Source of the DNA: Porphyra umbilicalis
Lineage: Eukaryota; Rhodophyta; Bangiophyceae; Bangiales; Bangiaceae
Direction of reading: 5' to 3'
NCBI GenBank assembly: GCA_002049455.2
Contig: KV918822.1
Coordinates: 1-64,000 of the forward strand
Length of the DNA: 64,000 nucleotides
Below are positions 2,845 through 54,756 of the stretch, in pieces. The stretch's first letter is position 1. The number at the start of each line of letters is the position of its first letter. The translations under genes were made by a program, and so were the position numbers. The notes beneath the pieces were generated by a model. The model had not been told where the DNA came from, made no database searches, and saw nothing but the letters and a program-made list of their open reading frames with translations.

Positions 2845-2927
2845 GATGACCGCCTTTGCGCCGGTCGCACCGGCGGCGGTGGCGCCGCGCCGCGCGCGCC
2901 CCGCCGCGCGCCCACCCCCCCCCCCCC

Positions 2928-3177: not shown

Positions 3178-3212
<35 letters not shown>

Positions 3213-3588
3213 CGACAGGCCCGCACCCGCACCCGCACCATCCCCACCCCCACCAGCCGCCCCCCCCCCCCGCCCCCCCCCCCCCCCGTCACCGCCGAGC
3301 ACCGCCGCGCCCGCGAGGACGACCATGGTGCTCTTGGGCGCCCGGAGCCGCCCCCCCGCGTCGTAGCCAAAGAGGCAGAGGACGCGCCCAAAGTACGGGT
3401 GCCACACCACCGACGCCGAGTGGCGCTTCCACCGGCGGCGGCCAAAGAGGCGCGAGCGGAGGCCCGCCCCCGACCCCGAGCGGAGGAGCAGCTCCGACGG
3501 GAGCGCCGACGTCAGCCGCGCGAGCGTATCGTCGGGGGGGGGCCCGATGGCGCCGCGGGTGGGGGAGGCACCGCCGCCCCCGCCGCCC

Positions 3589-3625
<37 letters not shown>

Positions 3626-5422
3626 TGCCGCGGCGGCGGGCCGCCGCCGCTCCGCGTGCGGCGCGACCGCCACGGCCGTGGCGGCGGCGGCGGCGGCGCC
3701 CCCACCCCCGCCCCCTCCCCACCGCCCTTCCGTGTCGGCGACGACGGGCGGCGGCGGGGCGGCGGTGGCACGCAGGGGACGGGTTCCCCCCCCCCCCCCC
3801 CCCCCTCCCCCCCGTAAACCCCCCCCCCCCCCCTCCTGCGCCGCGTCATACTCGCGGAGCGCGGCGGCGAGGGCGGCCACCCCCTCCCCATCCACCGGGT
3901 GCGTGGCGCCCGGCACGCCCGCCGCCGCCGCCGCGGCGGCGGCCGAGTAGAAGGGGGCCACCCCCCCCCCCCCCCGCCCCCCCCGCCGCCGCCGCCCGTC
4001 GGCCCGTCGGCCGACGCGGCGGCGGCGGCGGCGAGCGCCGCCGCCCGCCGCACCGAGTAGCGACACAAGTCGGCGGTGGCGGCGCGGGAGTGGGGGTGCG
4101 CCGACAGGCGGGCGGGCGCGTCCACTTCCACCGCCGCCGCCGCCGAGGCGAGCGTCGACGCGGTCACTGGGGGGGGGGAGGGGGGGGGGGCGACGACGCA
4201 CCCCGCAACCCCCACCACCCCAGCCCCGCGGTCGGCGGCCGCCCCGACCGCACCCGCCGCACCCGCCGCCGCCGCCGCCGCCGCCGCACCCGCCGCCGCC
4301 GCCGCCGCCGCTGCCGACTCGGCGGCCGGTGGCGGGCGCGCCTTGGCCGCCGACGCGGCGGGGGGGGCCTTGGCCCCCGCCCGGTGCCGCCGGAGGGGCG
4401 GCACGCGGGCGGCGTCGGGGTCGGCATTCTCATCATCGGCGGGTGCGGGGGCGGGGGCGGGCGGGCGGGCGGCGGCGCGGGGCCGCCCCGCCGTGTCGCC
4501 GCCGCCACCGCCGCCGCCGGCCGCGCCCGTGGCGCGGCGGCGGCGGCTGCGCGGCGGCGGCGCCGCCGCCGCGCCCGCCGCGCCGACGGGCCCCCCCCGG
4601 CGGCGCCCGCCGACGCCGCGTCGACGGTCGACGTGGAGGCGGCGGCGCGGCGGCGCGGCGGCGGCGCGCGCCCCGCCGACCGCCCCCCCGCCGCCGCCGG
4701 CGGCATTGCACGGAGCGGCGGCACGGCGTGCACCGCCCCGCCGTCGGCGACCGCCGGCGCCACGCCGCCAGTGGCGGGCGCCCCCGCCGACGGGGGCGGC
4801 GCGTCAACAACCACATCCGACACAAAGGCGGTTGCGCCAGCCACCGCCGCACCGGCGGCGGCGGCGGCGGCGGCGGCGGCGCGCGACCGCGGCGGCGGCG
4901 GCGGCGCCGCGGCCGGCGGCGCCGCGGCGCCGCTGTCACCCCCGTGGAGGGGGTCCCCCCCCCCCCCGCCAACGGGGCCGACAGGGAGCGCCGCAGCGGG
5001 CGCCCGCCCACCCCCCCCCGGGCGGCGGCGGTGACGATGCCGACGGCGGGGGCGGCGCCTCGGGCGCCTCGCGGATGGTCGGCAGCCGCCCGCCCGCCGG
5101 TGACGCGCCGCCGGCCCCGGTCGGGCGCGGCTTGGCGAGGCGTGTGACCTGCCGCTTGAGCTGCTCGAGTTGCACAATGTAGGCGGCGGCGGTGGAGAAG
5201 GAGCGGGGGGGGGGGGGGGGGAGGCAGAGGGGGGGGGGGGGGGGTCCCCACCGACGGGGGGGGGGGGGGGGGCCGGGGAGACGCACGCGCGGCGTCGGGG
5301 GGGGGGGGGGGGGCGGGGGGGGTGCCCCCGCGGCGGGCACCCGCGCGGGCGCGGCGGGCGCGGCGGCGGCGGCCGGCACGGCCGCCGCCGCCGCCGCCGC
5401 GGCCGACGGCCGCACCGGCGGC

Positions 5423-5453
<31 letters not shown>

Positions 5454-6641
5454 GTGCCGCCGCCCGTGCCGCCGACGGCGGCGCCGACGCGGGCGGCGGC
5501 GGCGGCGGGGGCGGCGGGGGCGGCGGCGGGGGCGGGGGCGGGGGCGGGGGCGGCGGGGCGGCGGGGGACCCCCCCCCCCCTTGACGGCGGGGGCGCCCCC
5601 CCCCCCCCCCCCGGGGCGGGGGCGGGGCGGGGGCGGCGCCCTTGGACGCTTGCAAGTGGAGGAGCGCCAGCTTGAGCGCCTGCAAATCCCCGTGCATGAG
5701 GCACAGCGTGTCGTCGCCGGCGCCGAGGCGGTCGAGGAAGGCGTCGGCGGCGGGGACGGCGGCGGCGGGGGGGGGGGGCGGCGGCGGCGGCAGTGCCGCT
5801 GCCGACGCTGCCGACGGACCGTCGGCCGCCGCCGCCACCGGGGGGGGGGGGGGAGGGCGCGTGACGGGGTGCCCCCCGCCGCCGCCGCCGCCGCCGCCGC
5901 CACCGCGACGCGGCGCTCCATCTCCCGCACCTGCGCGACGAGGGCGGCGCCGTCGGGGGCGGCGGCCGCACCGCCGTCGGCGCGGGGGTGGTGGTGGTCG
6001 TGGTCGTGGTCCTGTCGAGGCCCAGCGGGCACCCCCCCCCCTCCTCGGCGGTGGCGGTGGCGGTGGCGGCGACGACCGCCTCGGCCCGATCGAGGGCCTC
6101 CCCCCCCAGGCGACGAGGCCCCGGATTTTGGCCACGTGGCCGCGCAACGACGCGGCGCGGGCGGCGCGGTCGGCGGCGGGGGCGCGGCGGGTGCGGGCGG
6201 CGGAGAGCGCCGCCTTGGCCGCCTTGGCCGCCGCCATCTCCGCGCGAAAGGTGGAGAGGAAGTCCCCCGTGTCGGGGGGGGTCACCGACGAGGAGGGGGG
6301 GAGCGGCGACGCCGCAGAGGCGGCGCACGTCCCGCCGGGCGTCGACGGGGAAGAGCCGAGGGAGGACGGCGGGCCGCCGCCGCCGCCGCCGCACCCGCCG
6401 CCGCCGCCGCCGCGTGCCGCCGAGGCGGCGGGGAGGGAGGCGGGGCCGGCGCCCGCCGGCGGCGGGCGGGTGGGGGTGGGGGTGGGGGTGGGGGTGCCCC
6501 CCGCCCCGCCCCCGTCGGCGCGCATCGCCGCCGCCCACGCGGGGGGGAGCGGCACGCCCCCGCCGCCCCCCGTGGAGCGCGTCGGGGGGCCGGGGGGATG
6601 GCCCGGGGGGGGGGGGGGGGGGTGCCCCCGCTCGACCCCAT
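2928..6641 (-). CDS. Low-complexity protein with C-terminal PH-like domain, frames broken
   Basis: Read on the minus strand, the last part (about 3560-2928) gives a pleckstrin-homology-like fold: a basic strand segment RRRWKRHSASVVWHP, a middle segment ending in STMVVLAGAAVLGG, and the closing helix with RRLWLQVLRRSAAE after FVIRTEAREYVLAAADG. Upstream, separated by Gly/Pro/Ala low complexity, are short plausible helical segments: FLSTFRAEMAAAKAAKAAL and HVAKIRGLVAW near 6250-6110, LVAQVREMERRV near 5940, DDTLCLMHGDLQALKLALL near 5700, and AAAYIVQLEQLKRQVTRLA near 5190-5135. They lie in different frames, separated by G/C runs such as 3534-3542 and the 8-C run near 6108. I treat them as one gene, but two genes are possible. 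The ATG at 6641 is only a candidate start. PH domains bind phosphoinositides or proteins; no other function is assignable. Confidence 0.45.
5524..5570 (+). repeat. GGGGGC tandem repeat, G-quadruplex-prone
   Basis: Iterated GGGGGC/GGGGCG units form several consecutive G runs. A second such tract (GGTGGG units) lies at about 6470-6497. Both sit inside the low-complexity minus-strand gene. Confidence 0.6.
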
Positions 6642-8380
6642 GACAAACAGCGCCGACGACGCGCGCGCCGTCACTCACACTCGGGCGGGGGGGGCGGGGC
6701 GGGTGGGGAGGGGGGGGGGGGGGAGGGGGGGGGGGGGCGCGCTGCCGCGTGAGCAAGGGCGGAGCAACAAACGGTGCGAGGGGGGGGGGGGGAAGAAGCG
6801 CAACACGGTGGTGCCACCGACGCGGTGCCCGCACCCGCCGACCACGCAGAGACGCGGAGGAGGCAGCCGCACCCGCCGCCGCCGTCGGGGGGGTGCCGAC
6901 GCGCGCGCGCGTGCGCCGAGACGGTCACCGCACCGCCCACGGGGGCGGCAATGAAGAGCGGCGGGCGGCAGCCGGCGGCGGCGCGCGCTGCCGTCCGATG
7001 CGCAGCGGCGGGTCGCCGCGCGCTCCCCCGCCGCCGCGTCGTCGACGCGGCCGCCGCTGGCGGCCGCGGGGACGCGCGCACCGACCACCCGCGCGGGCGC
7101 GGCGGGGGGCGCGCGCCAAAACGCCCGTGACCGCCCCCGCCGTCACGCTCTGCCGCCGGCGCGCGCGGGGGGGGGAGGGGGGGGGCGGAGGGCCCCCCCG
7201 GGGGTGGGCGCGCCCGCGCGTCGGGGGGGCCCCCGGCGGATGCACGGTGGACTCGCCCCCCCGCAAGCAACGCAACGGGTGCGACGGGGGCGGGCCGGGG
7301 GCGCGGCGCGCGCGGGGGCGGCACGGCGGCGCGCCCCCCCCCCCCCCTCCCCCGCGGTCGCCGGGGGGGGCCCGCCCCCCGCCGCCGTGCGCCCAAGCGG
7401 CGACCGCCCGCGCGGCGGCGCGGCGTAACGGTCGCGCGGGCGCGCGGGGGGCGGGGGGGGGCGCCGCCCGCCGCGTGGCGCCGCCCGCGCGCGCCGCCGG
7501 CCCCCGCGCCGCGGGCGGGGCGGCGGCACCGCGGGCGGCGGCGGGAGGCGGCGGGCGGCGGCGGGCGGGGCGACGGGCCGGCGCGCCAGCCGTTTCAGCG
7601 GCGCGCGCCGCGGGCGCGCGCCTCTGACGGGCGGGGGGTCCCCGCGCCCAATCCGCGGCGGCCGCGGGGCCGCGCGGCGGCGGCCGTGGCGCCAGGTCGG
7701 GGCGGCGGCGGGGGCGGCGGGGGGCGCAAAAAGGGCGGCAAGGGGCCGCGCGGATCGGGGGCGGTGGCACGGGTGAGCGGGGCCCCGCCATTGGATGGCG
7801 CAAGTCGGGAGAAATCCAAACCAGTCGCGATGCAAAAAAAAAGAATACGTCGCCCAGGCGATTCAAATTTAACTAGTAGAGCATTTGCTCGTGCGCATCG
7901 TCGCGAAAGTGGACCACCCCCATTGGGCCGCCCCGAGTGACAAGACCAACTGCCAATTGTGCAAGTAGCCAAAACGGGCGAGAGTGCAAATAGGTGCCAC
8001 CCGCTTGGTCGAGTGAGTCCATGCCAATTGCTAGTGACCCATTTCTATGCTGCCCATTCTGGTGGAACGGTGCGAGACAGGCACCGGGACGGTGCAGTGG
8101 GCTTGACACTCTCCGGACACGGCAGGCCGAGTGGTCGTGGGATCCATGGCAACCTCGTGCTCCATCGATCCCAGCCACTGGCGACACGCGGGTCGACCAC
8201 GGGTCCGCCATGACGTTATGGATCGCGTAATGGGGGGCCCCCTTTGCTGGTCGCAGGCGGCCGGCATCGTCACGATGGCGGCCGCCATGGACGGTCCACG
8301 CGGCGTCGAGACCGCCTCATTCCACGAAGTGTCTCGCAACCCGCCCAACCCCGTCAAGCGTCGGTAAACGAGGCAGCCCA
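6642..8380. other. Gene-free GC-rich stretch
   Basis: Up to about 7800 the DNA is extreme GC low complexity. Its long open frames on both strands are Arg/Pro/Ala/Gly-rich without domains, as expected from composition alone. From about 7800 composition normalises abruptly and no gene is recognisable. Confidence 0.5.
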
Positions 8381-32828: not shown

Positions 32829-34602
32829 TCACACGCAGTTCCCCCCCCCATCACACTCCCCCGGCCGCAGCGGCCGATCCCCATCCGCAATGCGCACGAG
32901 CCACGCCACGTACTTGCGCGCCGCCGCCGCCGCACCCGCCGACCGCCCCGCCACGTCGAGGCGGTCCATGAGCGGCGAGTCTGGGACGCTAAACTTGCGC
33001 GCGTACCACTTGGGCGTCGCCCGCAGCGTCGGCTCGAGGGGGTAGACGGGGCCGCCGCCGGCCCCACCGTCCCCGGCGGCGGCGGCGGCGGCGGCGGCGG
33101 CGTCCCCCCCCCCCCCGGCGGCGCTTCAACGTCGACGGTCAGCGGGTGCTGCTCCCCCGCCCGCCACTGCACGTCGCGGAGGCAGTTGGACAGCACCGAG
33201 TGCCGCCACGAGGCGGAACCGGCGGCGAGGCTCACAAAGTAGTGCTCCGCCGCGTCCGCCGCGTAGGCAAAGGCGAGGAGGGACCGCCGCGCCGTCGCGC
33301 CGCGGGCGGCGTACGCCACAAACCCCCGGTGCAGCGTCATCCACGCTTCCGCCTTGTGGATGGAGGGCGCGACGGCGGGGAAGAGCGGCGCCGCCACGTG
33401 CGCGAGCGCCGCGTCCGTGACGGGCGTCAGCGCGCGGGCGGCGGCGGCGGTGGCGACCGCAGAGGCGCCCCACCCGCCCGCCGCCGCGGCGGTCGCATTG
33501 ACGGCGGGGCGGCGGGCGTCGCCGAGGTCCGCAAGCGCGGGGTCGACAAAGAGGGTGCCGAGGCGGTCCGCAACGATGCGCTCCGCGTCGGCGCCCGTCG
33601 CGACCGTGAAAAAGGTGCGGGGCTTGCGCGCGACGAGCGGCTCGGCGAGCAGCCGCCGCTGCGTCGTCATTGGCAGCAGCGGGTAGTCTGAGCCACTCAA
33701 GTTGAGCCAATACGTCCATGGCGTCGGCGCGGAGAGGGCCACCTCCATCGCGTCGAGGGTGTTGGTGACGAGCGACACGCCGCGGTAGGTGAGGGGCGTG
33801 CGCTCCATCACAACCACGTTGGCGGCGTAGGCGTCAGAGGCGGCAAGGTCCGCGAGGACGGGCGTGAGGGCCGCGTCGGGGATGGCCGCGTCAAAGTGCA
33901 CCGCGTACGTGTTGCGGGGGTGGTGCACGCGCGCGAGGAGGCGCGGGAAGAGGGGCAGGTTGGCGCCCGACACTTGGATAAAGATGGCCATGTCGACTTC
34001 GGGGGCGGGCGTGGCGCCGTCGACGCTGTCAACGCCGCCATCGACAGCGGCAGCGGCGGCGGCGGCGGCCGCGTCGGCCGCAGCAGAGGGAGGGCGCGCC
34101 GTCACGGCGGGCGACACGGACACGGACGGGGACAGGGGCGGCGCCGGCCCGACGGGCGTGGCGGCGCCGCCCCCGCCCCCGCCATAGGCGTTGAGGGTGA
34201 CCCCCCCCCCGCCAGCGGCCACGCCGACAGCATGGAGCGGCGGGGCGCGGCGGGCAGCCCGCCGCCGCCCGTCCGCACCAACGCCGGGAGGGCGACGGCG
34301 ACGGCGACCGCGTCGGCCGCCACCGCCCGCACCGCCCGCGCCACGGCCGTTGCGGCGGCGCCCGCGGCGGCGGTCGTTGTCATGGTCGGCAAGCCGCCGG
34401 CGAGCGCCCACGTGCCGCCGCCGGCCCGCCCATCCCCCCCGGCGGTCGACAGCGGCAGGGCGGCCGCGGCGGCGGCAGCGGCGGCGGCAGCGGCGGCGGC
34501 GGCAGCGGCGGCGGCGGCGAGCAGCGCAACGACGCGCGACGGCGCGGCGCCACCCCGCCGCCGTCGTTGCCGGCGGTCGGGTCCGCCGCGGCCGCGGCGC
34601 AT
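32829..34602 (-). CDS. GT14-family glycosyltransferase (core-2/I-branching, 'Branch' domain), frames broken
   Basis: A type II membrane topology fits a Golgi enzyme: a short basic N-terminus (MRRGRGGPDRRQRRRRGG) and then a long Ala/Leu hydrophobic segment. After a C run at 34201-34210 the catalytic region is continuous: DMAIFIQVSGANLPLFPRLL, HHPRNTYAVHFD, NVVVMERTPLTYRGVSLV, WTYWLNLSGSDYPLLP, APSIHKAEAWMTLHRGFVAY and AEHYFVSLAAGS. These match the GT14 order (N-acetylglucosaminyl-, xylosyl- and glucuronosyltransferases). A C run near 33106-33118 moves the frame again, after which LEPTLRATPKWYARKFSVPD and KYVAWLVRIADGD complete the domain, ending at 32829. Substrate unknown; cell-wall or glycoprotein glycan synthesis is likely. 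Confidence 0.8.
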
Positions 34603-34677
34603 GGCGGCGGCTCGGTGGGTGTCAGACGGGGGGGGGACGGGCGTGCACCCGGTCGGCAGCCACGGCCGCCCGGCAGC

Positions 34678-34700
34678 GTGTGTGTGTGTGTGTGTGTGTG
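34678..34700 (+). repeat. (GT)n microsatellite
   Basis: About 11 GT units. On the transcribed minus strand this is a (CA)n tract about 76 bp upstream of the glycosyltransferase start codon, so probably in its 5' leader or promoter. Confidence 0.9.
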
Positions 34701-35059
34701 CGGGGGGTGGGGCCGACGACGGGCGGGGGGGGGGGCGGAGTGGGCACCCGCTCTCGGCGCCGGCGCGCGCGCACCGGCGGTCGTGCCCCGACGCACCGGC
34801 CGCCCCCCCCGCCGGTGGCCGCGTCGGTAGATGAGGCGGCACGCGCCGCCGACCCGCCGCGCGCCGCAACCGCCGCTGCACACTGCGGCGGCAGCCGCCC
34901 CGCACCGTGGGGCGGGGCAGCGGGGGGGGGGAACTACGGGAACCAGCGCCCCGCGCCTCTCACCCCCCCCCCCCGCCGCCCCGCCCCGCCCCGCCCCGCC
35001 CATCCCGCCGGCGGCGCGGGAGGGCGTGGGCGGCTCACAGGGGGCGGTGGAGCCCCCGT

Positions 35060-35090
<31 letters not shown>

Positions 35091-35841
35091 GCGGCTGCCA
35101 CGCGTGGCAGGCGGCTGACGCCCCCCCCCCCGCCACGCCGGCGGCAACGCGCAGGCGACCCCACGCGCGGCGGCAACGCGCAGGCGACCCCACGCGCGGC
35201 GGCGGGTGGCGGCACCCCCCCCCCCCCCCCCGCGTCACCCCCCCCCGCGCGCCCGCGGCCGCCACCCGCGGCCGCCAGGCGGGGGGGGGGTGTCAGGGCC
35301 CCCCCCCCCCCCCGCGGGCGCCCCCGTGGGCGCCCCCACCGCCGCACCGACCGCCGTTGCGGCGGCGGCGGCGGCGGTGGGGGTACCGCGGCCGGGGGGG
35401 GGGCACCGCCCCCCGCCGCCGCGTGGCGGTCGCCGTCGGGCGGCCGCCGCGGAGGGGGGGCCCCCGCCACCACCGGCACCGCTGCGGGCGCGGCCGCGGC
35501 GGCGGCGGCGGCGGCGGCACGCCGCCCCGCCCCCGTCGGTGCAACGGCAGGTTGGGGGCGGGCGGCCCGCGTGGGGCCCCGCCCGCCGGCACGCGCCACC
35601 GGCGCACGCGGCGCAGCGTGCCGCGCTGCCGTCAGGGGGGGGGGGGGGGGGGGGGCCTGCCACCACCCCCGCCCCACCGCGACGCGCCGCCCGCCGCGGG
35701 CGCGGGCGCCGCGCGGGGGCGCGTCGACCGCCCCCCCACCGGCCGCGCCCGCTGCGTCGTCGGCCGCCGTGCCGTCCCCGGCGCGGGCGGCGGCGGCGCG
35801 GGCGGCGCGGCCGGCGCGCGGGCGGCGGCGGGGGCACGCGC
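34701..35841. other. Gene-free GC-rich stretch
   Basis: Extreme GC low complexity with many C and G runs and no recognisable domain on either strand. Confidence 0.5.
35138..35200 (+). repeat. 29-bp tandem repeat, two copies plus partial
   Basis: Units begin GGCGGCAACGCGCAGG at 35138 and 35167, with a partial third at 35196. The copies are essentially identical. Confidence 0.8.
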
Positions 35842-35944
35842 TAGGGCGGTTCACCACGTCGGGGGGGGGGTCGAAAAGCGCCCGTTGGGCTCCCACAAGC
35901 CCGCTCGAGACCCCCCCCCGTAACGACCTTGGTGAACGGGCCTA
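35842..35944. mobile_element. MITE, 103-bp TA-flanked inverted-repeat element, copy 2
   Basis: Same length and architecture as 15871-15973: TA, then GGGCGGTTCA at one end and TGAACGGGCC at the other, then TA. Internal segments (GGTCGAAA, CGCCCGTTGGG, CTCGAGACCCCCC) align with copy 1. The two copies are clearly diverged, so transposition is not recent. Confidence 0.75.
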
Positions 35945-36330
35945 GCACGTCGGGGGCGCACCGCCGCGCGCGCGCGGCCGGTCGGGCGGCCGCGCCGCGC
36001 CGCCGCCGCGCGCCCCCCCGCCCCACGTGGTGCTTGACACACGCGCCGACGCGGCGGCGGCCGGCGCGGCCGCTGACCGTGGGCGGCCCCGCCGCGCCGC
36101 TGCCGCCGCCGCGCCGTTCGTCGCTGCTGCGTGCGAGGGGAACAGATTGCCATTCCGTCCGGGCTCCTGTGCCTGAACAAGGCCTCAACACAAGCGAACC
36201 TGTTCCATTACCGTCTAGGTGCTGAGCTCTCGATCTCGAGCCTGAAGGCAGCCTGCACCAGAGCCGTGCAGCTCTCGACATAAAAACGGCACGAGCCGGG
36301 TTTGTTAGCAGGCGGGGTCCAAAGCGGCTT

Positions 36331-36372
36331 AACCTGACGCCATACAGTCCAAACCTGACGCCATGCAGTCCA
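36331..36372 (+). repeat. 21-bp tandem repeat, two copies
   Basis: AACCTGACGCCATACAGTCC is repeated with one substitution at 36352. It lies near the proposed left end of the large transposon. Confidence 0.8.
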
Positions 36373-36840
36373 GATACAGCTGCTGTGCATTCGTTCTTGG
36401 TCGGCCTGGAATGGGTGCGGATCGAGAAATTGATTCGTACTGTTCGTCGCAGTAAGCGACGACGCCCGCACGATGTCGCGTAGGACAAAAAACAGGGCTC
36501 CTTTATCGGCTGTAGCGCCATCACAAGCACTACTTCCAGCACGATGAACACACTCACTCAAAGCACGGAGGACAGGGACGCCAGCAATGCCAGATCCCAC
36601 GCCAAGAGGTAGCGACGTTGACCAACAAGAGCAAGCAAAGCAAACAAGAAAAAATTCCGACAAAGAAGCGATGACAAGAGCGACCAGAGCGATCCGGCTG
36701 CACTACTGCTGCCACGGCAACGGTGGCACGGCACAGAACCGGCCAGAGGTGAGGAGCAGACCAACCCTGGTCAGAGCGAAAAGACAAGGTCCATGGAGGA
36801 GTCGTCAAAACGCCTGAGCAGCAGGATTCAGGGGCCCGCA

Positions 36841-39800
36841 TCACAGACCAGCCGCGCGGTGCGCACGCCACTGAGCAGCGTACTCGCCAGAGACGGGACG
36901 GATCTCGTCATCCTCCTCTTCATCCCAGTCGTCCACTCGCGCAGCAGCCTCGCGGGCGGCTTGCGACCCGGGAAGCACGGGCATACCCACCGGCAGGGGC
37001 GCAAGACGCATCTGACGGGGCGGACTGGGCAATACGGCACCAACAGGGCCAAGGACACCCTGGGGGGCGAGCGTAGCCGCGGCCCCGTCGAGGAAGGTGG
37101 GCGGAGCGACGGCACCAACCGCAGACACACCAACCACAGGCACAGCAGCAGCAAGCACAGCAGCAGAAGCACCAGAAGTAGCCGGAGCTGGGGCACCCTC
37201 AAGAAAGTGGCGGTTGGGGTTGCCGCCATCAAGCAGCTGCAGGCCGTCGTGAACTTCCATGTCCTTTGGGAACACATCGTGCAGGAAGAGGAGCTCACGC
37301 TCATACAGCGTCCGGTGTCCCTGGTTGAGCACACCGATAGCGGCAGCCACGGGTGGCAGCCCAGCCCGGCTGCGCAGGAAGGTGCGAATCTGCCAGAGGG
37401 TTTGGAGTACGAGAACAACAAACAGGGAACAGCAATGCAGCCCTAGAAGGGAAAGACGATGTCAGTACCTGTTGTGCTCGACGTGACAAGGTCTCACACA
37501 CGCCCGCTATAGAACAGCAAATGCGCGAAGAGCATGCGCAGAGCAAATGAGGCGGGTAGGTCATGAGAGCTGTTGCGGACGTACCCGGAAACAGACATTG
37601 GCGGCCTGCCCGTAAATGCATCGGATGATGCGCGCCGCGTTGTTGGGGCCCGACCAGGTAACCATCATCGCCGTCCCGGCAACTTCGTCTATGACGCTGG
37701 CCAGCGCGTCGAGCACTGCCAGACGCCCGTTGGCGCCCTTGACGAACGAGTCATCGCGGAGAAGCTCGAGACACTCCTCTCCAGACAACTTGAGAACCCC
37801 ACGAGTGTCGCGCGCGCCCATGCCCGTCAGCGCATGAATGCGCTTGACGAAGGTCGCAACCGCAGAAGACGTCAAGGCGCTGTTGAGGTGCCCGACCACC
37901 CGCTTCACGTATTGATACGCCACGACGAGCGCCAACCCCTTCGCGGGCTTGCGCACCGGCAACATGACCTTCTGTTGCAGCTTCTCCGCCGCCTCGTCTT
38001 CTGACACATGCATAACGTGTGCCGCTGCGCGCAGGAGCCGGTCGTTCGTAACCGTCGTCGTCGGATACACGAGCGCCGACGACGAGGCGGTGCGGATCTC
38101 TTCCATTAGGCCTTCCAGGAAGCGCTCCTGTCAGATGGAAATGCATTGCAGGACAAGCACAAACACGGACGACCAAGAGAGGAAGAGTTGTCAAGCAACC
38201 CATTGAGGAATCGTCAGTATCGGTGGGAACGTACAGAGGCAGGCACTTGACACAGACAACGGGGTTACATGGCGACACACAACGTCAGCAGGATAGCCGT
38301 TCCAAAATATCTCGACCGAGAACAGTGACCGGGCAACTCATCGGATGATTGCAGCGAGCGGCTCGCGGACGCACCTTAATCTCGTTCACGAGGCCCAGCG
38401 TGTTAGCCACGCGACCACCGTCCGCCTTGTCACCCCCTTCCTTTGGGAGTCGCTCGTTGAGCGCCTGCAGTAGCATCTCCAGCTTCGACAGGCGTTCGAG
38501 AACGACACCGCTCCCCGACTGCGTTCCATCCGCGGCAGCAGCAATACCGTCCATGCGTCGCAGAGACGACGCCGCCTGCGACTTGACGACAACAAGCTCC
38601 GCTCGCAAGCGCCCAGATTCGCGCCGCACGGACGAAAAGCCAGTGCGCAGCGCGACCATCACGTCGCGCAGCGTCAGAGTAGCATGCTCGACGTCGTTGT
38701 TGGCTCTGGCAGCTGCGCCAGCCGTCGAGGCCGCTGCAGTCGTGCGCTGGGCACCCGAGGCGCTGGCGCGCCGACGAGTCCCGGACAACGCCGGAGTCCG
38801 TCGGGGCGAGTCCGTCGGCGAAAAGCGTGGAGATGCTGGCGGCGTAATGTACGCGGACACTAGCGCGTCGTCGTCCATTTCCTCGCTGCTCCCGTCGTCC
38901 GTCCCGGGCGGCGGTGGCTGATGTGCCCGTACCAGAGGGGGAGGCACCGGGGAAATAGTTGCAGGCATCGCCGCAGACGGGGAGCGACCCGCGCCAACTG
39001 ACGCCGCAGCAACCCGATTGGCAACAGGCGGGGGAAAAGGAGGAAGCCCCCCGGATGAGAACTGCACACCAGGTAGAAGCGCAGCCGTGCCAGGAGACCA
39101 AAAGGCACCGACCGGGAAGATCCGTGGGTTGCGGCTGCGCTCCGCGAGCTGCTCCGCCAGTGCATCGGCCGCCAATGCCACCCGCGTGACGACCGGCGTC
39201 GGCCCAGGCGTACGCCCATCACCCTCTGTGCGCGAAGCCGTCTCGTTCGGCTCGGTCGAGGTCGAAGACGCCATGGGGACCGGTACGTAAGCAGCCCCAG
39301 CTGCCGACTCGCGGTCGTCAGGCTTGCCAATACCTGCAGCGGCCGTCTCAGCACTCCGAGTGGTCGATGCCACAACATTAGCCGCTGGCGTCGGCGCTCG
39401 GGCTGGGCCCGCGGAGCTTGATGCGCCAACCGTAGCGTCCTCTTCTTCCCCGTTCGATAACTCACTATCACCGTCGCTGGAAGCCGTCTCCGCGTCACTC
39501 CAACCACCAGGTGGAGTGGGGGGATCCGCGTACATGCGCGGTGCGATGGCCGTCATGACAGCAGCCTTGCGCACAAAGCCGCGGCGGGAGGAGCGCGACC
39601 GGTTGGAACGGTTCTTGGTTCGAGGAAGCGATAGATGCCCCGGGGGCATCTCGACTTTACGCCCCCGCGTCACCGCCTCCGTCACCGACGCGCGCCGAGA
39701 AGACTGACCATAACCCGCCGCCGATCCGACGACGGGGACAACCGGCCCAGACGGCGTGCAGGCAGCTGGAACTGCAGCCTCCGTCCACGGCTTCTGCAGC

Positions 39801-40300
39801 TTCGCGACCTTGTCCGTGACAAGTGAGGAAGCGGCCCCAGAACCCGTCGGAGACCAAACGACAGAGGATGATGCACCAGGCGTCGCCCGGCCGCCTGCCG
39901 ACGAAGCTCCACCAGCCTTGACCGCCTTGGTAGCCGGCGTCGCGCCGAGATCAGCAGCCAACGTCACTGCTTCGCCGCGTGCGTCTTCCGTCAACACCTC
40001 CAGCTTCTGCTCGTACAGCGCGACGCCGACTGCGCCATCAAACTTGAGGGTCGGGTTCAGTCGTTCACTCGCAGGGTCCCCGGCAGAGGAGCGCGTGGGC
40101 GTCACCCACGTAGCGGGATCGTCGACACCGATAGGCTCCTGGTATCGGGCAGCCTTTGCGGGACCCTTGCCCTTGGTCGACGGCTCCACCGTCGCGGATG
40201 GTATGTTGTCGACGTCGATGACATCCTCCTGAGCCGCGCGCTTGGTAGATGACCGAGTTCCCGACTCCTTACCCCGGCTCATCGGTGCAGGGGGCGCCAT
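36841..40300 (-). CDS. Companion protein of the transposase, three exons, function unknown
   Basis: Minus-strand exons 40300-38375, 38127-37585 and 37389-36841 join in frame (donors GTGCGT and GTACGT, acceptors GACAG and GGCAG) to about 1005 residues. Residues 1-540 are Ser/Pro/Ala/Thr-rich and probably disordered, with a basic patch (RTKNRSNRSRSSRRG) that may be a nuclear signal. A coiled-coil-like segment follows (LRDVMVALRTGFSSVRRESG, VLERLSKLEMLLQALNERLP). Exon 2 encodes a folded-looking helical domain (LLRAAAHVMHVSEDEAAEKL, SGEECLELLRDDSFV). Exon 3 contains HRTLYERELLFLHDVFPKDM and an acidic WDEEEDDEIRP end. I recognise no family. Opposite orientation within the same block suggests a second transposon gene, but a captured host gene is possible. 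An alternative reading lets exon 2 run on to a stop at 37561. Confidence 0.6.
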
Positions 40301-42175
40301 CGTACCCGGGACTAGCCGATAACTGGGGGCTCCACGGCGGGGGAAGGGCGCGGGGGGGCGCGAGTGGATGCGGCCAGTGCGGGTGTGGAGGCGGGCAGCG
40401 ACAACGTCGCCGCGAATGGCGGTCGCGACACGAGGGACGGGTTGACTGGATGACCACCGCCACCACGATCCGGCGCGTATTCTTAACGGGAGAGACACCC
40501 GCACCGGGACGGCTGGCAGGCGCCTCAGGCGCCGGTGCAGAGCGGCAGGGCGGGCTGCCGACGCCCGGTGCCCCGCTGGGCGACGCAAGCATATCCAGCG
40601 CGCGCACCCGTGGTGCCCAGAAGCAGGTCTGGGGCCAACATTGCCGTCTCGACGAGGCGCTGCCAAACCGGCGGGTGAGCCCACCACCCCCACAGCCCTC
40701 GCCCGTGCGAGGGGTGGCCACCCCACCGGCTACGACAGGCAAGCAAACGCACCAGCGTCGGAGGACCGTCACATGCGCCCACTCCGCGTGCCCGTGGGTG
40801 CCCATGGGCGAGAGGTCGTGGTGTCGACCTAGGCCTACCGCCCGGTTCGACGCCTCACGGCGCCGGCGACTACCGGCATCCGGCTGCTGGGGTGGTCCCA
40901 GGTGATTGTGGCCCGGAATGCACGCGCGGGGCAATCAGGCGTGTGGAGGGGCGCCATAGTGGAACCTGCAAGAGCAAGGTGTGCCACTGGCAAGTGGCAC
41001 AAGGGGAAGATGTGAGCGGGAAGCGCGGGGTAAGGTGGGAGGAGGCCGGCACGTGGAAAGCGAAGATTGACAGAGCGACGAGCGTCAGGCACAGCGGAGT
41101 GCGAGCAAGGTGATTTGGCCAATGACCACAGAGCGCCGGGGAGGCGGGGGCATGTCGCCGGGGGGGCGGGTGGTGCGGGGGGGGGTGTCTCTGTCGCAGG
41201 CAGCGGGTGCGCGGTGGTTTGCGGTCCATGTCGCCGCCCTGGGCGGTGGGTGGTGTCGAGCGTGAAGTGGAAGGCGACCCGCCGTGCCACTGTCGAAAGA
41301 ACTATCAGCTAGGAGATCGGACCTACCGTCAGTCACTGCAAGGCCACAGAAAAAAGCGAGGTGTGCGCTTGCCCATGGCAGGTCACTTGGGCAAGAAGCC
41401 CCCCAAGAAATACTGGTGCTCCAATCGTGCGTCGTGTTGGTTTGTTGAAAGAATCTGGCTGAATGCAATACTACGATACAGCTAAAATCTCGTGGATTTG
41501 GTTTCCGGATTCCGCGGAAGTCCACTGCGTCTCTTCTACCTCCAGATCCCAAGAAATAGCGATAGAGTACACGCGAAGCAAGATCGACGCAGTCAGCCGC
41601 CAGACTGTCGAGTCGGGTTCGCCCGACACTGAACGCGTTACCGGGGATACCTCTACCGCACCGATACTGACACACGGTGCTCCATCGACGCGCAGCATCT
41701 CCTCGTTTTCTACCTAAGACCGCTTCATACGCTACACCGGCGTACCCTTCTGGGTGCTCGTTCGGTTGGCCTGTACGACGGCGCGTGCTGGCGGGCCGCG
41801 TCCCGCGCCCGCGCCCCAATATCGACGGCCATTGCTTATCTCCTTCAACGGTGTCGCGCGCAAGCTGCACCACGCCACACCACCTCCCCCGGTTACCTTC
41901 TTCGCTCGTGTGGCCAGTGTATGCTCGTAACATTTCCTTGTGGTTGAGGGTACCATTTCAGGCAGTCCTCTCTGCAATGCTCTTTCTGATGCTCGGCACC
42001 ATCTCCTCGCGTCTTGTCTTCTCGGTTTGTGGATACGTACAGGTGTCGTCATGTGTCCATTCTACGAGCCTATGACCACCAGCTGCTAAACCATCATGTC
42101 ATTAATTGCTCCCTCGTGCTGCTGCACGCCCGTGCACGTCTGCCTTTGTCTTGCAATTCGTTTTTTGTACAGGTC
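40301..42175. other. Intergenic region between divergent transposon genes
   Basis: About 1.9 kb with no convincing gene. Presumably promoter and leader DNA for both genes; a leader intron before 42176 is possible because TTTTTTGTACAG ends just before the transposase ATG. Confidence 0.45.
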
Positions 42176-45100
42176 ATGGAGCAAAACCAGGTCGCCCGCA
42201 TGTCCTACTGCAACTGGCTCTGCTGGTTTTGCCCCCGTTTGTTTTCCTCCCAACCGGCAAGGACTCACCATATGAGCGCGAAGCACGGTCGGCGCAACCG
42301 GCTAGTGCCCCCGGAGGGGTTCGTCGAGCTGCACCTAAGGCCCGATGCCATGGACAACACACGCAGCTCTGCGGCGGTGCATTCATCCGCGGGCCAGAGC
42401 GCTGCCGGCGTCCACGGCGCAACTGCCTCTTCGGCTATGGCTGCTGCTCGTGAGTCGGTAAATGATCGCGACTCACCGGTGCATCTGCCTGCTATTGGTG
42501 GGCTCGGTGTTGTGCGCGTACCCGCCGATGGCTACATGCGCGGGTCGCTGGCGGCTCCACGGCAGCGTAACGTTTTCCAAACTTCCACTGCTGCCCGTAT
42601 TCGTGCCTACTACGAGGCCATGCCAGAAGCAAGCCAAACCCATCGCTTAGTGCCGGCGCTTGTCGGACAGCGACCCTCTTTGTTCAACACACCCCTACTG
42701 CGAGAGGTGCTCAAGTTTGCCCTAAGTGCTGGTGGACCGGGCCTCTCACAAGCGGACCAGATTTCGTACGTTTCGGTGCTGTTAATGGCTGAACGGGGTG
42801 GACGCTCGTCGCGGCTCCAAGACCCCCTCCGAGGATCCCGGCCTCCCTCGAGGGCTCGTCGTACCAGCGAGAGATCCCAGCGACGAGAGGTACTCGTCGG
42901 TGCGGCTGACCTCATTCACAGTGGCTCTGTGCCAGCTGGCGGGACGAGCTCCGAAGACGATGACGGGGAGATCACGCGAGCGTTTCCCAACAAGACATCC
43001 TTCGTGACAGCCGTGCGGGCGGAGCAGCGTCGCGTCTTGTCCAAACTTTGTTGGGATGAGACGCCCCTCGAAGTGGAAGGGCAAACGTACCTGTTTTACT
43101 CGCGAGACCTCCTCGTGGTCGTGATGGACTTGCTGCAGCACGCCAGGCACGTGCAGTTCTGGGGCGAGCAGCTGGGTTTGGGATCGGACCATTCGCAGCT
43201 GCGTGCGGATATAATGGACAGCGACCTGCTACTTACGGAGCAGCTTATTGTCCGTCGCCGTCATGGCTCCCTTGCTTTCGTCCTGGCTGTTCAACTATTT
43301 ATTGACGAGGCGGTTGTGTCATGGTCCGGTGCACACTACATGTACCCTATTCGGGCACGTGTACCCAACGTGCGGGATCGCTCCGTACAGTGGGTGACGG
43401 TGGGGTACGTGCCCCATGTCGGCAAGCCAGTGGCTCGCACGTCGGCCGCACGGCGACGAGCAAGCGACAGCCGCAACGGCGTTTTGCAACGCTGCCTGGC
43501 ACTCCTTCTGCGCCGCTTCGTTGGCGCTAGCCAGACCGGTGTGCAAGTGCATCTGCCGGGTTCTCCCGTACTGACCGCAGTACCGCGGCTTTTCGGCATT
43601 GTCGCTGACCAACTTGGCGAGAGATCGGTTCTTTGCTTCATGGGCAACGCGTGTCAGTTTTTTTGTTCGCATTGTATGGTGCGGCGCGGTGTCGCCGGCG
43701 GACCGCAAGGGGTCGGTGCCGATGCACGAGATGTGACCGCCGTGTTGGATGCACAGATGGATGGCGCCATCACTCGCGACCGAGACCCGCGTCCGTCTCT
43801 GCGTAATGCGCTCCGCACTGAGTATAGTGCATTGGCCTTTGTGCCGGCCGTCGCGGCCGTGTGGGGCTTGGCTACGGACAACAAGCGGCTCTACGACATC
43901 ATCTCTTTCGACCTGCTACATGTGTGGAAGCTGGGCGTTGTCCGCATGGTCGCGCAGCGCTTCCCATCCTTTCTTACCGCGGCGTGCGGTGGGCACGACG
44001 CCCGCCTCGGACCGGCTAATGCCACTCTTGAGGCCCTCAACTTGAGGGCCTGGGAAATGGGGCATCTTTGCGTGCCGTCTCCAACACCGCCCGGGTATGT
44101 CTTTCCGCGTGTTGTTGTATTGACACATGTACCCCCACTTGGCGACGTGGACCGCCCTTCCTTGTGACACGCTGTGAATGCTTGACGGCTGCCGGGACGT
44201 ACGTTACATCCTTATTACTTGCTGACGACATGCAATGCCCGTGCTTCTTTTTGTCGTCGACACCCGCTCCCATGCCCTCGTGTGCGCTGTGTCTCCAGAT
44301 TCTTCGTGCCCCCTACAGATAAGCAGCTTCAGATGACGGGTCGTCTTTGGCGACATGGGCTTACCATCATGCCCCATATGATCGCCGGAGTTGGGGGTCC
44401 AGCCGAGGAGCATCTCGCACAGAATCGGGAAGCAGCACCGCCGCATGGGGCAGGGGGGCACCGGCAAAGGGCAGCAGCCGCAGACGGCGACGAGCTCGAC
44501 GATGGGCACGACCCAGATGGTTTGGTCTTCGAGGCAACAGAAGAAGTGCTGCCAGATCCTGTGGTGCCTGACGTCGTCACGTCAGCCAAGTACCGCCGGC
44601 TCTTCGGGACCCTCCCCTTGCACATGGCCGTTCTCGACGTCTTTTGTCGCATGGCCGCACTGGGAGGGCGGCTGATGGGCGACAACATGGCCGACACGGT
44701 CCAAATGACGGAGCAGCAGATGCGTGATCTTGCCGACGAGGCTCAGAACTTCATCATTGAGTACGTCGACGTGCTGTTCGGCCCAGCGCACACGACCAAA
44801 GCCCACCGCCTCGCTAGCCATCTGCTTGCAGCGCTGCTTCGCAATGGTAACCTCTGGGAGGGGGACACAAGTGAGAACGAGCGCTTGCACGGCCCGTGCA
44901 AGAAGATGTACGGACGAACGAACAAGCGTGGGCCGACGGTTGTACTGCAGATGATGAGGGCGGCTGAGACGCAGTGCGAGGTGCTGCGGGAGCTGCGGGA
45001 GCTGGAGGACGAGGACGGGGACGGTCTGTTCGACTTGTTGGAGCAGCCCGATGGCGCCGTCGACGTCGAGACAGTGCCGAATGCGACTATGTCGCAATCG

Positions 45101-45703
45101 CACCGGGGCCTGCGCATGACGATTGGTCAAGCGTCGAGGTTGCCGGGTATGACCGCATTGGATGCGTTGCTGCAAATGCAGGCAGAGTGCTCTCTGGTTG
45201 TGTCGCAATCGTTCACATTCTTTTGCACCTTTGAGTGGGGTGCGTCGTCGGTTGTGCAGACGGCGTGCGCAGCGGAGTCGTACCTCGGCAACCCACGCTA
45301 CGACTACATATGGTACACTGACCAGGACGGGCGGCGCAAGCTGGGATGGGCGCGACTGATTGTGCGGATGCTCGGTGGGGCCGTCGACGACTTTGTCGTC
45401 GTGCGATGCCTTGAAGACTGTCCAGCGATACCACTATGCTCCCTCACTCGCTCCGGATGCAAGCGGATGGCGTGGCGCTTTGCGCACCCCAATGACGACT
45501 GGCCCGAGATCGCCCGTGTTCCATTGACCAAAGTGCTTAGAATCGAGCATGTCGTGGCCGACTTCCAGGACCTCGGGAACCGACTCGGCTTGCGTGCGGT
45601 GCCTTCGAGCATCCCCGCCACAGCCGCCGAGCGCCATGCGCAGCGGTTTTTCACCAACCACTTTCATCCTTTCACTTCCCGGGTATTGAACCCAAGCAGC
45701 TAA
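42176..45703 (+). CDS. Plavaka/tnp2-like (CACTA superfamily) transposase
   Basis: Exons 42176-44094 and 44299-45703 (donor GTATGT, acceptor TCTCCAG) join in frame to 1107 residues. The N-terminus has a C2H2-type finger (C16-x2-C19 with His at 31/32 and 37). The central part has the pattern of this transposase group: FIDEAVVSWSGAHYMYPIR, then a sentence-like segment ending TVGYVPHVGKP, then RLFGIVADQLGERSVL followed by a CxxC motif (FCSHCMVRR), and ISFDLLHVWKLGVVRMV. The C-terminal part includes HRLASHLLAALL and ENERLHGPCKKMYGRTNKRG. Acidic residues in FIDE and VADQ, and the E/H of ENERLH, are candidate catalytic positions. The reading frame is intact, so the copy could be active. An ATG at 42176 follows a splice-acceptor-like CAG, so a 5' exon may exist. 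Family name is by eye. Confidence 0.7.
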
Positions 45704-47368
45704 GGGAAGCCGGCTGGCCAGTGATATCGACGATTGGCGGGGTAACGGTGGGGAGACATACGACCGGCGAGTTGGCCGGCTCAGGACACTTGGGCGGGCA
45801 GTCGTGCCATGAGCAGGGCCGGTTGGGGGTGTTCGTGTGCGTGAACGTCGTAGGGAGTGGCGGAAGAGGGTTGGGTGGTAGTCGGGTGAGCAAGCGTTGT
45901 CATGGCGGTACTGGAAAAGTTGGACCCATGTCGTTTCGTAATGGGCGCCAGTCGGTCGGTTCTGGCGCTCCACGTCACATAAAAGGAAAACGGCATGATG
46001 CCCGCCCAGTGGCCCATGGCGGCGGCCCACGCGGCGGCGTCGACGACGGCGGCGGGGCGGTTGACAACATGAGGAGGAGGGAGTGCACAAGGACGTCGCC
46101 CGGGTACCCGTGGGGGGGCGCGACGCGCGCACGAGGGGGGGGGGTCCAGTCGCTCGCTTTGGCGCCGACGGGTTTGGCGAGCGCCGCGGGGGTGGGGGGC
46201 CCGCCGCCGCCGCCGCCGCCGCCGGCCTTTCCGGCCGCCCCGTCACTTCCTGCGCCCGACAGGCCGGCGCCCCCCCCTCCCCCCCCCGTCGCCGCCGCCA
46301 CCACCGCCACCACCACCGTCAGCACTCCCCTCCCCCTTTGCTACCAGCACCTTGCCGCCGCCACCGCCGTCGCCGCCACCGCCGTCGCCGCCGTCGCCGC
46401 CACCGCCGTCGCCGCCACCACTGCCGCCGCCACCACTGCCGCCGCCACCACTGCCGCCGCCACCGTCGTCGCCGCCACCGCCGTCGCCGCCGTCGCCGTC
46501 GCCGCCGTCGCCGCCACCACTGCCGCCGCCACCGCCGTCGCCGCCACCGCCGTCGCCGCCGTCGCCGCCACCACTGCCGCCGCCACCGCCGTCGCCGCCC
46601 AGGCCTGGGGATATCGGCACTCACACCGCGGCTGGGCTTCGCGGGTGGCTCCGCGGTGCCGCACCCACCGCACCCGCCGCCGCGGCGGAGATGGAGCAGG
46701 GTGCTGTAGTGATGCAGAGTAACGTCCCATTGTTCGACTCTGAAATAGACTGGGTCGTCGGCCAGCGGCATCCACCAAGTCGACGCGGTGTTAAGAAGGC
46801 CGCAGGTAAAATTCTAATCCGCTTGCCAATGATCACTCCGCCCGGGCTCCATCTGTCTCGTGCATTCCTGCCTCTCCGACACCGAAGTCTCCACTAGTCA
46901 TCCGAAACACGCCTATCTCGCAGTAAACTGCCTAACAAGTCGGAACGAGCCGGAGCCGGGCGAGAGGTCCTGGCACAGGTCTCAACCGTCACGAGTGACC
47001 CACCAAACCATCCCAGGTCCTGGCAGATGCAAGAAACTCTCACGAGTGAGGGGAACAACAGCCCCCAACGAGATGCCACCTTGATTAGGCTTTGTTCCCT
47101 GAACACCGTGGACAACAGAAGTCCATTTGTTGACCTGTTCCCGGACGCTCCCTGGTGTCGGGGGTGCTGTTGCACCGCCGCCTGCAGCGACGTTACGGCC
47201 GCCGCCGCGGGCGCCGCGGCGCGCGTCGGGCGGCCGCGGCCGACGCGAGACGCGGCGGCGGGGCCCCGCGCCGCCGCGCGCGCGCGTCGGCGCGCGCGGG
47301 AGAGAGCCACACGGGTGGCGCCGCCCCGCCGCGCCGACCGCGTCGGTCCAACCGCGCAGCGGGATCAA
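45704..47368. other. 3' part of the transposon and flank, no further gene
   Basis: No supported gene. It holds a trinucleotide minisatellite (46348-46605) and the proposed right end near 47142. From 47150 the extreme GC composition of the flanking genome resumes. Confidence 0.45.
46348..46605 (+). repeat. GCC/GTC minisatellite
   Basis: About 260 bp built from CCGCCACCG, CCGTCGCCG and CCACCACTG blocks. All six frames stay open simply because of the repeat, so the Pro/Ala/Gly reading frames here are not evidence of a gene. Confidence 0.85.
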
Positions 47369-51956: not shown

Positions 51957-52178
51957 GGCGCGCCGCTCGCCGACGGGCCGTGGCGGTGGCCCCGCCGCGG
52001 CGGCGGCGGCGCGGCGGCCAGCGGCCGCGCCTCGCGTCGGCCGCCGCGTCCGTCTGCGCCCGCGTGCGCGCCCCCGACGGCTGGGCCCCGCTGCGCGTGG
52101 TTCCCGCATCTCTGCACGTTCGTCGCCGGCTCGTGCGGAGGGCAGAAAACAAAAAAGAGCATCCGTTTAATGGGCGAG

Positions 52179-54756
52179 TCAATGTTGGCGGTCGGGCGCG
52201 CCGCTCACGCCGCCGCCCCCCACCCGCCCCCGGTCCCCCCCTCCCGCGGCGCTCACGCTGCTCAGGCGCCCCCCCCGGGGGCGCCCAAACAGCTGATACG
52301 CGGGGTTAAACGGCTCCTTGGCAGCGCCGCCGCCGCCGCCACCGCCGCCCCCGCCGCCGCCGCCGCCGCCGCTGGCGCCCGTCGGGGTGCTCCTGCGGCG
52401 GAGGGCGCTGCTGCGCTTGCGCATGGCGGTGGCCGCCGCCCCCACCCCGCACCCGTCCGCCTCGTAGGCAGAGGTGTCGCCCGCAGCGGCAGCGGCGGCG
52501 GCGGCGGCGGCGTCGGCGGCGGCGGCGGCATCGGCACCCCCCGCCACCCCCCCCGCATCGACCGGCGGCAACGCCCCGTCGGCGCGGAGGCGGGCGGCGA
52601 CGTCCCCCCCCCCGCCGCCGCGAGCGCGCCGACCATCCGCCCGACCGCCGCCGTCGCCGCCGGCTCCACGCCCGCCACGCGCACGGCCGCCGCCGCGGCG
52701 GCGGCGGCGGCGGGGAGGCCCGCCACCTCCATCGCGTCGCCGAGGCGGCCGCCGCCGCCGCGCACCGCCGGCGGGCCGCCGCCCGCCCCCGCCGCCGCCG
52801 CCGACGCGGCGGTGACGAGGCGACCAATCGCCCGCGCGGTCGCGGCCGTCGCCGCCGCCTCGGCGTCGGCCGCCGCGCGGTGGAGGGTGGCCGCGAGGCC
52901 GACGAGGGCGCCCGCGTCGACGAGGCCGGCGGCGGCGGTGCTGCTCGCGCGCGCGACCGCGTGGACGGCCGCCACGGCGGCGGCCGAGGCGGCGCGCGCG
53001 GCGGCGCGGGCGCTCAAGTCGCTCGCGTGGCCACCGGCCGCGTCGACGACGGCGCCGGCGACAGCGTCAGCGCCGGGCGGCGGCGCGCCCGCCGCCGCGG
53101 CAACGGCGGCGACGGTCGCCGGGTGGGCCCACAGTTCCGAGCCACCCCCCCCCACGCCCCTGCCCCCCCCGGCGGGCGCCGCGGCGCCCGCCGCCGCCGT
53201 CCACGACGTGGCCAAGTCGGCCACCACCGCCGCCGCGTCGGCCGCGTCAGCCGCCTGCCCCCCCCCCAACGCCCGCGCGAGCGCCGTCGTGGCGGCGGCA
53301 ACCACCTCTGGGCGGTGCACGGCGGCGGCCAGCGCCGCCGCCGCCGGCGTCAGCCCCCACGTGGCCGCCCCCGACCCCACCCCCGTCACGGCCACGGCGA
53401 GACCCGCGAGGGCGGCGAGCGCCCGCACCGCCGCCGCCGACACGGCGGCGGCCGACGGGTGCGCCGTCGCGGCGGCCACGACCGCAGCCGTGGCGGGCGC
53501 CGCGCACAGGGCGCGGAGGAGCGTCGCCGCCGACGCGGCGGGCGGCGGCGCGTCCGCGGGCGACGCGGGGGGGGGGCCCCACACAGGCCCGCCCCCGCCC
53601 CCGCCCCCGTCGGCCGCCGACGGGGACGACGCGCCGGCCGTGTAGCGCCGCCGCCGCGCGGGGCCCGCCGGCACGCCAGACGTTGCGGCAGCCGCCGCGG
53701 CAGCGACGGCGGCCACGATGCGGCACAGGGCGGCGGCGACGGGCGGGTTGTACCGGCCGGTGCGGCCGGCGGCGGCAACGGCGGCGCGGAGGCCGTCGGC
53801 TTCGCAAAAGGCCACCGCCGCGCGCACGCCCGCCGTTGGGCTGCCGCCGCAGCCGCCGCTCGACAGCGACGCGCCCTCGTCCTCGTCCTCATCCGACGCA
53901 CCCGTCCAGCCCCCCGCCCGCGCCGGCACCGACGCTGTGCCCGGCGACAGGCGGTGGCCGTCGCCGCCCCGCCCGCCCGCCGACGCCGTGCCCGCCGCAG
54001 CCCCCTCTAGGTGCGACGCAAAGGCGGTCAGCGCGGCAGCCGCCACCGCCGGCACGTCTGGGGAGCGCGACACCCGCCGCACCGTGGCGGGGACGTCGAG
54101 CGGCGACGGGGGCGGGCGGGGCTGCCCCGCTGCCGCCGGCGAGCGCGGGGAGGAGAGGGGCGACCACCCCCGCCGCCGCGGCCGCGTCGCCGTCGACGCG
54201 TCTGACGTGGACGGCGCCGACGGCGACGCGCCGCGGCCATCGGGCGGCGCCGTAGTCGGGGAGGAGGACGCCGAGGAGGTAGCCCCCGACGGCCGCCGCG
54301 CCGTCGAGGAGGACGTGGGGAGTGCGGGCAGCGCCCACCCGTCGTCGTCGGCTGAGCCGCTCCGCGCGGCACGCCGCGGGCGCCGCCGCGGCGGCTGCCC
54401 CGACGGCGTCGGCGGGCTCGTGTGTCGCCGCTCCCGCGACCACACGGATGACACGTCGTCGTCATCGTCGTCGTTGCTGCCGTTGCGGCCGTCGGCGCCG
54501 GCGTCGGCGAGGGCGGGGTCTGACGCGAGGGCGGCCGCCAACCCGTCGTCGTCGTCGACGTCGACGGCGTCGACGTGGGCGGCAAAAGTGAGGGCCACCC
54601 GCCGGGGGGGGGCGCCGCACCCACCCCCACGTCGGACGGCCGGGCGGCGTCCGCGGCGGGGGGGAGGGACCGCACGCGGACGACGGCCGCCGCCGCCTTG
54701 GGGCGGGGGCGGGAGGGGGGTGGCGCCCGCGGCGGGCCGTCGGCGGGGGCGGCCAT
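52179..54756 (-). CDS. Ala-rich protein, probably armadillo/HEAT-like helical repeats, frames broken
   Basis: From an ATG at 54756 (CCCACCCATGG) the first part is Pro/Ala/Arg-rich. An 8-C run (54604-54611) shifts to the long frame beginning RRVALTFAAHVDAVDVDDDD. A disordered Ser/Pro/Asp-rich region follows, then about 450 residues of Ala-rich helices: PDVPAVAAAALTAFASHLEG, RAAVAFCEADGLRAAV, AALCRIVAAV, AATLLRALCAAP, AAVRALAALAGL, AAATTALARALGG. The period and content suggest armadillo-like repeats. A C run near 52604-52613 shifts the frame again, and the C-terminus has a basic AMRKRSSALRRRSTP, a Gly run and KEPFNPAYQLFG before the stop at 52179. I cannot name the family. It converges on the NmrA-like gene and is 5' of HDAC on the same strand. 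Confidence 0.6.

Follow-up and report, generated by a model that had tools for sequence, protein, structure and literature searches.

Two genes that face away from each other in the red alga Porphyra umbilicalis, one of them encoding a transposase, raise the question of whether they form a single mobile element and, if so, what its second protein does. They lie in a 64,000-nucleotide stretch of contig KV918822.1 (hereafter the window). The interval 36119-47192 (11,074 bp) is almost certainly one two-gene DNA transposon carrying the transposase and a companion gene, and most likely an autonomous-looking transposon of the Plavaka kind, with an observed structure and a presumed activity. The initial annotation had likewise read the locus as a transposase plus companion system, naming three findings that would speak against it: the two genes apart in other copies, borders other than those proposed, and a companion that is a conserved single-copy host gene. 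The reading is supported, none of the three breaking it.

Extent, ends and copies of the element

A DNA search of the genome (83.8 Mb, 665 contigs) with the left end of the element (from 36140 on) returns four other places, on contigs C50, C290, C439 and C6, and the corresponding search with the window's right end returns no match besides the window itself. The copies on C6, C290 and C82 are more than 99% identical to one another over the stretches compared, and their matching ceases at CGTCGCAACTGG (CGTCG) on the sides compared. The C50 copy carries CGTCGGTGCAGG at both ends, and at the corresponding place the window has CGTCGCTGCTG at the left end (36119) and, read inwards, CGTCGCTGCAGG at the right end (47192). 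Because near-identical copies keep matching beyond 36138 and 47142, the borders first proposed, the ends are placed at 36119 and 47192, 19 and 50 bp farther out, respectively. The borders do differ, but both genes lie within one unit framed by terminal inverted repeats (TIRs) and a target-site duplication (TSD), and the same frame surrounds both genes in the window, C6, C290, C82 and C50. In the window, the TIR starts with 5'-CGTCGCTGC, its left and right versions being identical at 15 of 25 positions. A 2-bp TSD is found in all five full copies of which both ends were read (window TT/TT, C6 CT/CT, C290 GT/GT, C50 CT/CT, C82 AT/AT). Duplications of 4 and 6 bp, judged by eye at the flanks of full copies, were dropped, since 2-bp matches fit all five. 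The features of the element are collected in Table 1.

Table 1. Features of the two-gene element, in window coordinates
Feature	Position	Strand	Evidence or remark
Left 2-bp TSD, TT	36117..36118	.	2-bp pattern repeated in other copies
Left TIR, starts CGTCGCTGC	36119..36143	+	where >99%-identical C6 and C290 cease matching
Left subterminal repeats GGGAACAG, GAACAAGG, CTGTTCC	36138..36202	+	3 motif matches, left 100 bp
Companion exon 3, 182 aa, acidic C-terminus, stop	37389-36841	-	
Companion exon 2, 181 aa, conserved helical domain	38127-37585	-	
Companion exon 1, 642 aa, low-complexity N-terminal part then long predicted helices	40300-38375	-	helices by relative P0001
Span separating the start codons of the two genes, candidate bidirectional promoter	40301..42175	.	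position only; putative promoter role
Transposase exon 1: C2H2-like motif, D377, D478, C497-x2-C500	42176-44094	+	Pfam PF18759
Transposase intron, predicted	44095-44298	+	
Transposase exon 2: H804-x4-H809, E834, stop at 45703	44299-45703	+	alignment of homologues
GCCGCC-type minisatellite, 54-bp unit, 4.7 copies	46354..46599	.	between transposase stop and right end
Right subterminal repeats	46919..47168	.	element's richest 250-bp window for the motif, 7 matches
Right TIR, inward reading CGTCGCTGCAGGCGGCG...	47168..47192	-	ends shared with other copies
Right 2-bp TSD, TT	47193..47194	.	pairs with left TT

Clusters of GAACAG-type repeats sit just inside the TIRs, and the two borders first proposed, 36138 and 47142, fall within them. 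At both ends of the C6, C290 and C50 copies and at the right end of the C82 copy, the outermost 100 bp hold seven to eight motif matches each, and the background in the inner part of the window element is ~0.7 per 250 bp. The window copy is thinner, with three matches in its left 100 bp and five in its right, and possesses an inner cluster of six matches in the 250 bp from 37369. Given its fewer end repeats, this inner cluster and its imperfect TIRs, the window copy may be old or inactive. Clustered subterminal repeats, a trait of TNPA systems, are clear in C6, C290, C50 and C82, and weaker in the window copy. The words GGGAACAG and, in similar form, GAACAAGGCCT, which had been noted on the left with inverted counterparts on the right, do recur inverted near the opposite end, but they belong to these subterminal repeats and are not the termini. 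The lower-GC block of 11 kb, also part of the first description, stands out against the left flank (60-69% GC in each kilobase of 36-46 kb versus 84-88% in the 2 kb leftwards), but the contrast is weak on the right, with 63-75% from 47 to 52 kb and 73% in 46-47 kb, which still belongs to the element. Elsewhere in the window, GC reaches 81-88% over long stretches at 2001-8000, 34001-36000 and 52001-54000.

The TIR pattern CGTCGSTGMRGGSGGCRGCCC, with up to two mismatches, matches the genome 271 times, and the reversed pattern 140 times, so that many of the weaker matches are attributed to chance. The matches listed include 16 inverted pairs, of which 13 have a spacing of about 1.25 kb and three a longer one. 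A family of ~1.25-kb non-autonomous copies with nearly perfect 21-bp TIRs is found at C2:206751-208017, C6:660162-661357, C26:197083-198304, C179:1035-2290 and other places, and the first 16 bases of these copies are those of the window's right TIR. A 2-bp duplication flanks nine of the ten non-autonomous copies with flanks compared, the exception being the C115 copy (AA/AC), and appears in 11 of 90 mismatched pairings; a 3-bp TSD, found in none of the ten, was rejected. The ~1.25-kb copies may be moved by the proteins of the window element.

The transposase and its place among known systems

The initial annotation described an intact transposase of 1107 residues with one predicted intron, which is borne out by the two exons of Table 1; three uninterrupted homologues (P0041, P0042 and P0044) cross the exon junction without a break. 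Pfam analysis of exon 1 reports the Plavaka family PF18759 above its cut-off (34.9 bits, cut-off 26.3, E 1.3e-8) and does not list the tnp2 family PF02992 for either exon at E ≤ 1; by Pfam, the Plavaka assignment holds. The protein exhibits a C2H2-like N-terminal motif at residues 16-37 (C16, C19, H32, H37). On the basis of position counts and an alignment of 31 database homologues, D377, D478, C497-x2-C500, H804-x4-H809 and E834 are read as catalytic and zinc-site residues, the part with the H and E residues being covered by 3 of the 31 only (P0041, P0042 and P0044). A second H(3-4)H spacing is also found between D478 and E834, and the choice of H804/H809 rests on few sequences.

According to the accessible part of Kojima 2025 (PMC12730594), transposases of the CMCT clade have C(2)C and H(3-4)H between the second D and the last E, CA..TG ends are usual there and not required, and PlavakaA and PlavakaB end in TGT..ACA and CATCA..TGATG, respectively, the TSD of Zisupton being 8 bp long. 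The present transposase possesses both motifs in that position, and the element has CG..CG ends. Its CGTCG..CGACG termini differ from those of PlavakaA and lie two G-to-A changes away from those of PlavakaB, and the element is filed under Plavaka at the level of the Pfam family, as neither PlavakaA nor PlavakaB. Plavaka elements have a 2- or 3-bp TSD, which is 2 bp here both in the full and in the non-autonomous copies, in contrast to Zisupton. The element thus resembles fungal Plavaka in its PF18759 match above cut-off, its D/D/E residues with C(2)C and H(4)H and its 2-bp TSD, and differs in its red algal host and in the unrelated companion that it carries in divergent orientation. A TET/JBP gene is present in some fungal Plavaka, and the same accessible text (PMC12730594) reads it as an aid against methylation-based silencing.

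Compared with the CACTA elements En/Spm (TNPD and TNPA) and Tam1 (TNP2 and TNP1), the element is likewise large, encodes two proteins, and has subterminal repeat clusters and non-autonomous relatives. In contrast, it is devoid of CACTA..TAGTG ends, has a 2-bp instead of a 3-bp TSD, and has a companion unmatched in Pfam besides the unlisted PF02992. A transposase with a second ORF is common in CACTA elements, as far as the available text of PMC4158355 goes. In the portion of PMC2613891 that is accessible, Spm derives both proteins from alternatively spliced transcripts, unlike the two separate divergent genes here; TNPA binds subterminal repeats, both TNPA and TNPD are required, and TNPA-like proteins are dissimilar between elements. 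Other non-fungal Plavaka, from other host groups, are the "giant repeats" of Amoebidium (PMC11244446) and the EnSpm-Plavaka of the green alga Auxenochlorella (PMC12636532), for which the accessible parts of both papers make no mention of a companion of the present kind. Literature on red-algal Plavaka or on the companion was not found within the sources reached, most subscription journals and Repbase lying outside them, and earlier Repbase records are possible.

The companion protein and its linkage to the transposase

The companion is confirmed as a minus-strand gene facing away from the transposase, with three predicted exons encoding 1005 residues, and both exon junctions are crossed by the annotated Porphyra relative P0001. 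Its N-terminus, first described as disordered and basic, is of low confidence in the AlphaFold model and only mildly basic (net charge +12 over residues 1-250), while the expected helical portion appears as long helices and a helical domain predicted at moderate confidence. A full-length relative folds poorly (mean pLDDT 50), and its model returns membrane and coiled proteins, which are not useful matches. Exon 2 modelled alone is nearly all helical (pLDDT 70, about 90 at residues 91-140), and fold searches with this model give no useful structural match. Pfam analysis of the companion exons and of 20 aligned exon-2 sequences reports no convincing relative, the weak matches with DUF4088 (0.002, 1/20 exon-2 sequences) and Senescence (0.0033, 4/20) not being credited, and a PDB sequence search returns no match at E ≤ 5. 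None of these searches, whether in Pfam, by PDB sequence or with the model folds, recognised a known DNA-binding domain or fold in the companion.

Protein-database searches, which scored only about 8,000 candidates each, report at least 14 relatives with a single protein and at least 39 with the exon-2 alignment, one of which is the window's own. The two that bear an organism name both belong to Porphyra umbilicalis (BU14_0056s0049 and BU14_0148s0044), and the remaining ones come from jgi, lgn, ena and mgnify. With at least 152 companion loci in the genome, the reading of the companion as a single-copy host gene is excluded. These loci were collected with exon 2 (45 matches, 44 loci), a divergent relative (62 matches, 28 new loci) and a more distant one (85 matches, 80 new loci); 44 of the 62 and 83 of the 85 matches were taken in, those left out overlapping loci from the exon-2 search. 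Transposase loci, 235 in total, were gathered by searching with the protein of the window (102 matches, 62 loci), with PF18759 (123 matches) and with a distant Plavaka fragment (150 matches), and the control set by searching with PF02992 (149 matches, 148 loci). All locus counts are lower bounds, the searches scoring the best candidates only.

A Plavaka-like transposase lies within 12 kb of 119 of the 152 companion loci, and the two genes are divergent in 113 of these. By query set, the linked loci amount to 38/44, 19/28 and 62/80, of which 35, 19 and 59 are divergent, and the median gaps between the two genes are 4.0-5.1 kb. The control transposase occurs within 12 kb at 1/152 companion loci and is divergent at none; 1000 shuffles of the contig labels give a mean of 23.1 and a maximum of 38 loci within 12 kb, with at most 15 divergent. 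Conversely, a companion is found within 12 kb of 49/62 close transposase loci, 66/173 other Plavaka-like loci and 1/148 PF02992 loci. At this reach, 33/152 companion loci and 13/62 close transposase loci have no partner; pairing thus prevails over the separation that would count against a joint system. At C14:367956-368339 lies a companion copy whose left end reads CATCGGTG and which lacks a transposase match within 12 kb. As only 66 of the 173 other loci have a companion, many Plavaka relatives may lack one, or their partner may have escaped detection. Plavaka-like open frames of ~560-660 residues with no companion detected are seen at C234:108139, C505:27296, C323:68050 and other loci, these three ranking with the top PF18759 matches genome-wide; such loci are possibly companion-free Plavaka lineages, or have partners too distant for detection. 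PF02992 (tnp2), with its 148 loci unlinked to the companion, represents a second abundant CACTA-like transposase family.

The distances between companions correlate with those between transposases (r = 0.79 for 187 pairs among 20 chosen copies, from which C112 and C324, with both genes known, were omitted), none of 5000 permutations reaching as high. In C117 and C85, the companion and the transposase are separated by 15 kb. Without the divergent C37 and C96 copies, r is 0.68, again with 0/5000 permutations. Exon 2 of the companion is under purifying selection: among 18 copies, all ten pairs whose dS lies between 0.02 and 1.0 have a dN/dS of 0.06-0.30. Of all 153 pairs, 53 lie outside dS 0.02-1.5, and omega reaches up to 0.47 in the lowest-dS 25 of the other 100. 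For the transposase, dN/dS gave no usable value, 35 of 36 pairs lying beyond dS 0.02-1.5.

Role of the companion and meaning for Plavaka biology

With about a hundred joint occurrences of the pair in the genome, the companion is probably part of the transposition machinery, and among the proposals on what it does, its action in transposition is the one that we hold with most assurance. The overall best explanation, which we favour with somewhat less conviction, is a transposon in which the companion would serve as a TNPA-like cofactor binding the subterminal repeats; taken separately, this mode of action, suggested by analogy, stands evenly between acceptance and doubt. The DDE transposase would move the element by cut-and-paste, yielding 2-bp target duplications. 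The companion would dimerise via its long helices, bind the GAACAG-type subterminal repeats at both ends, as does TNPA in En/Spm, and pair the ends for the transposase, and it may also regulate the element.

The main competing explanation keeps the two-gene transposon and places the companion outside the transposition complex, as a counter-silencing or regulatory protein. VANC, the counter-silencing protein of VANDAL elements, represents such a protein. The retention of the companion with the transposase, its purifying selection and the divergent layout agree with this role, as does the anti-silencing reading of the TET/JBP gene on some other Plavaka in the accessible text of PMC12730594. However, none of the chromatin or demethylase domains in Pfam matches the companion convincingly, and the subterminal repeat clusters offer a simpler target, which leaves this role rather unlikely. 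A captured passenger gene, serving the host or nothing and carried along by linkage, is an improbable identity for the companion: the 33 companion loci with no transposase within 12 kb fit such a history, but a linkage kept in a single orientation across companions only about 25-35% alike does not, and co-divergence with the transposase and low dN/dS point to a joint function. The imperfect TIRs of the window (15/25) would suit two adjacent insertions, or a chance GC block, instead of one element; the shared TIR/TSD frame repeated around both genes in the window, C6, C290, C82 and C50 refutes this, and we regard it as next to impossible.

Two-protein transposition is well known for CACTA elements, and the divergence of their second proteins obscures where these came from. 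Here, one second-protein family can be traced over a large and deeply split Plavaka set, usually beside its own transposase, and the 113 divergent pairs in one genome, with companions down to about 25-30% identity, form the basis for a reading that covers the whole branch. Tentatively, the companion may found a new family, the obligate second subunit of a red-algal Plavaka branch, in which a Transib/RAG1-related lineage would have independently gained a TNPA- or RAG2-like partner. With the companion family and the non-autonomous copies that share the ends of the element, the co-evolution of the two partners and the recognition of the repeats can be tested directly, and Plavaka biology is extended to include a red alga.
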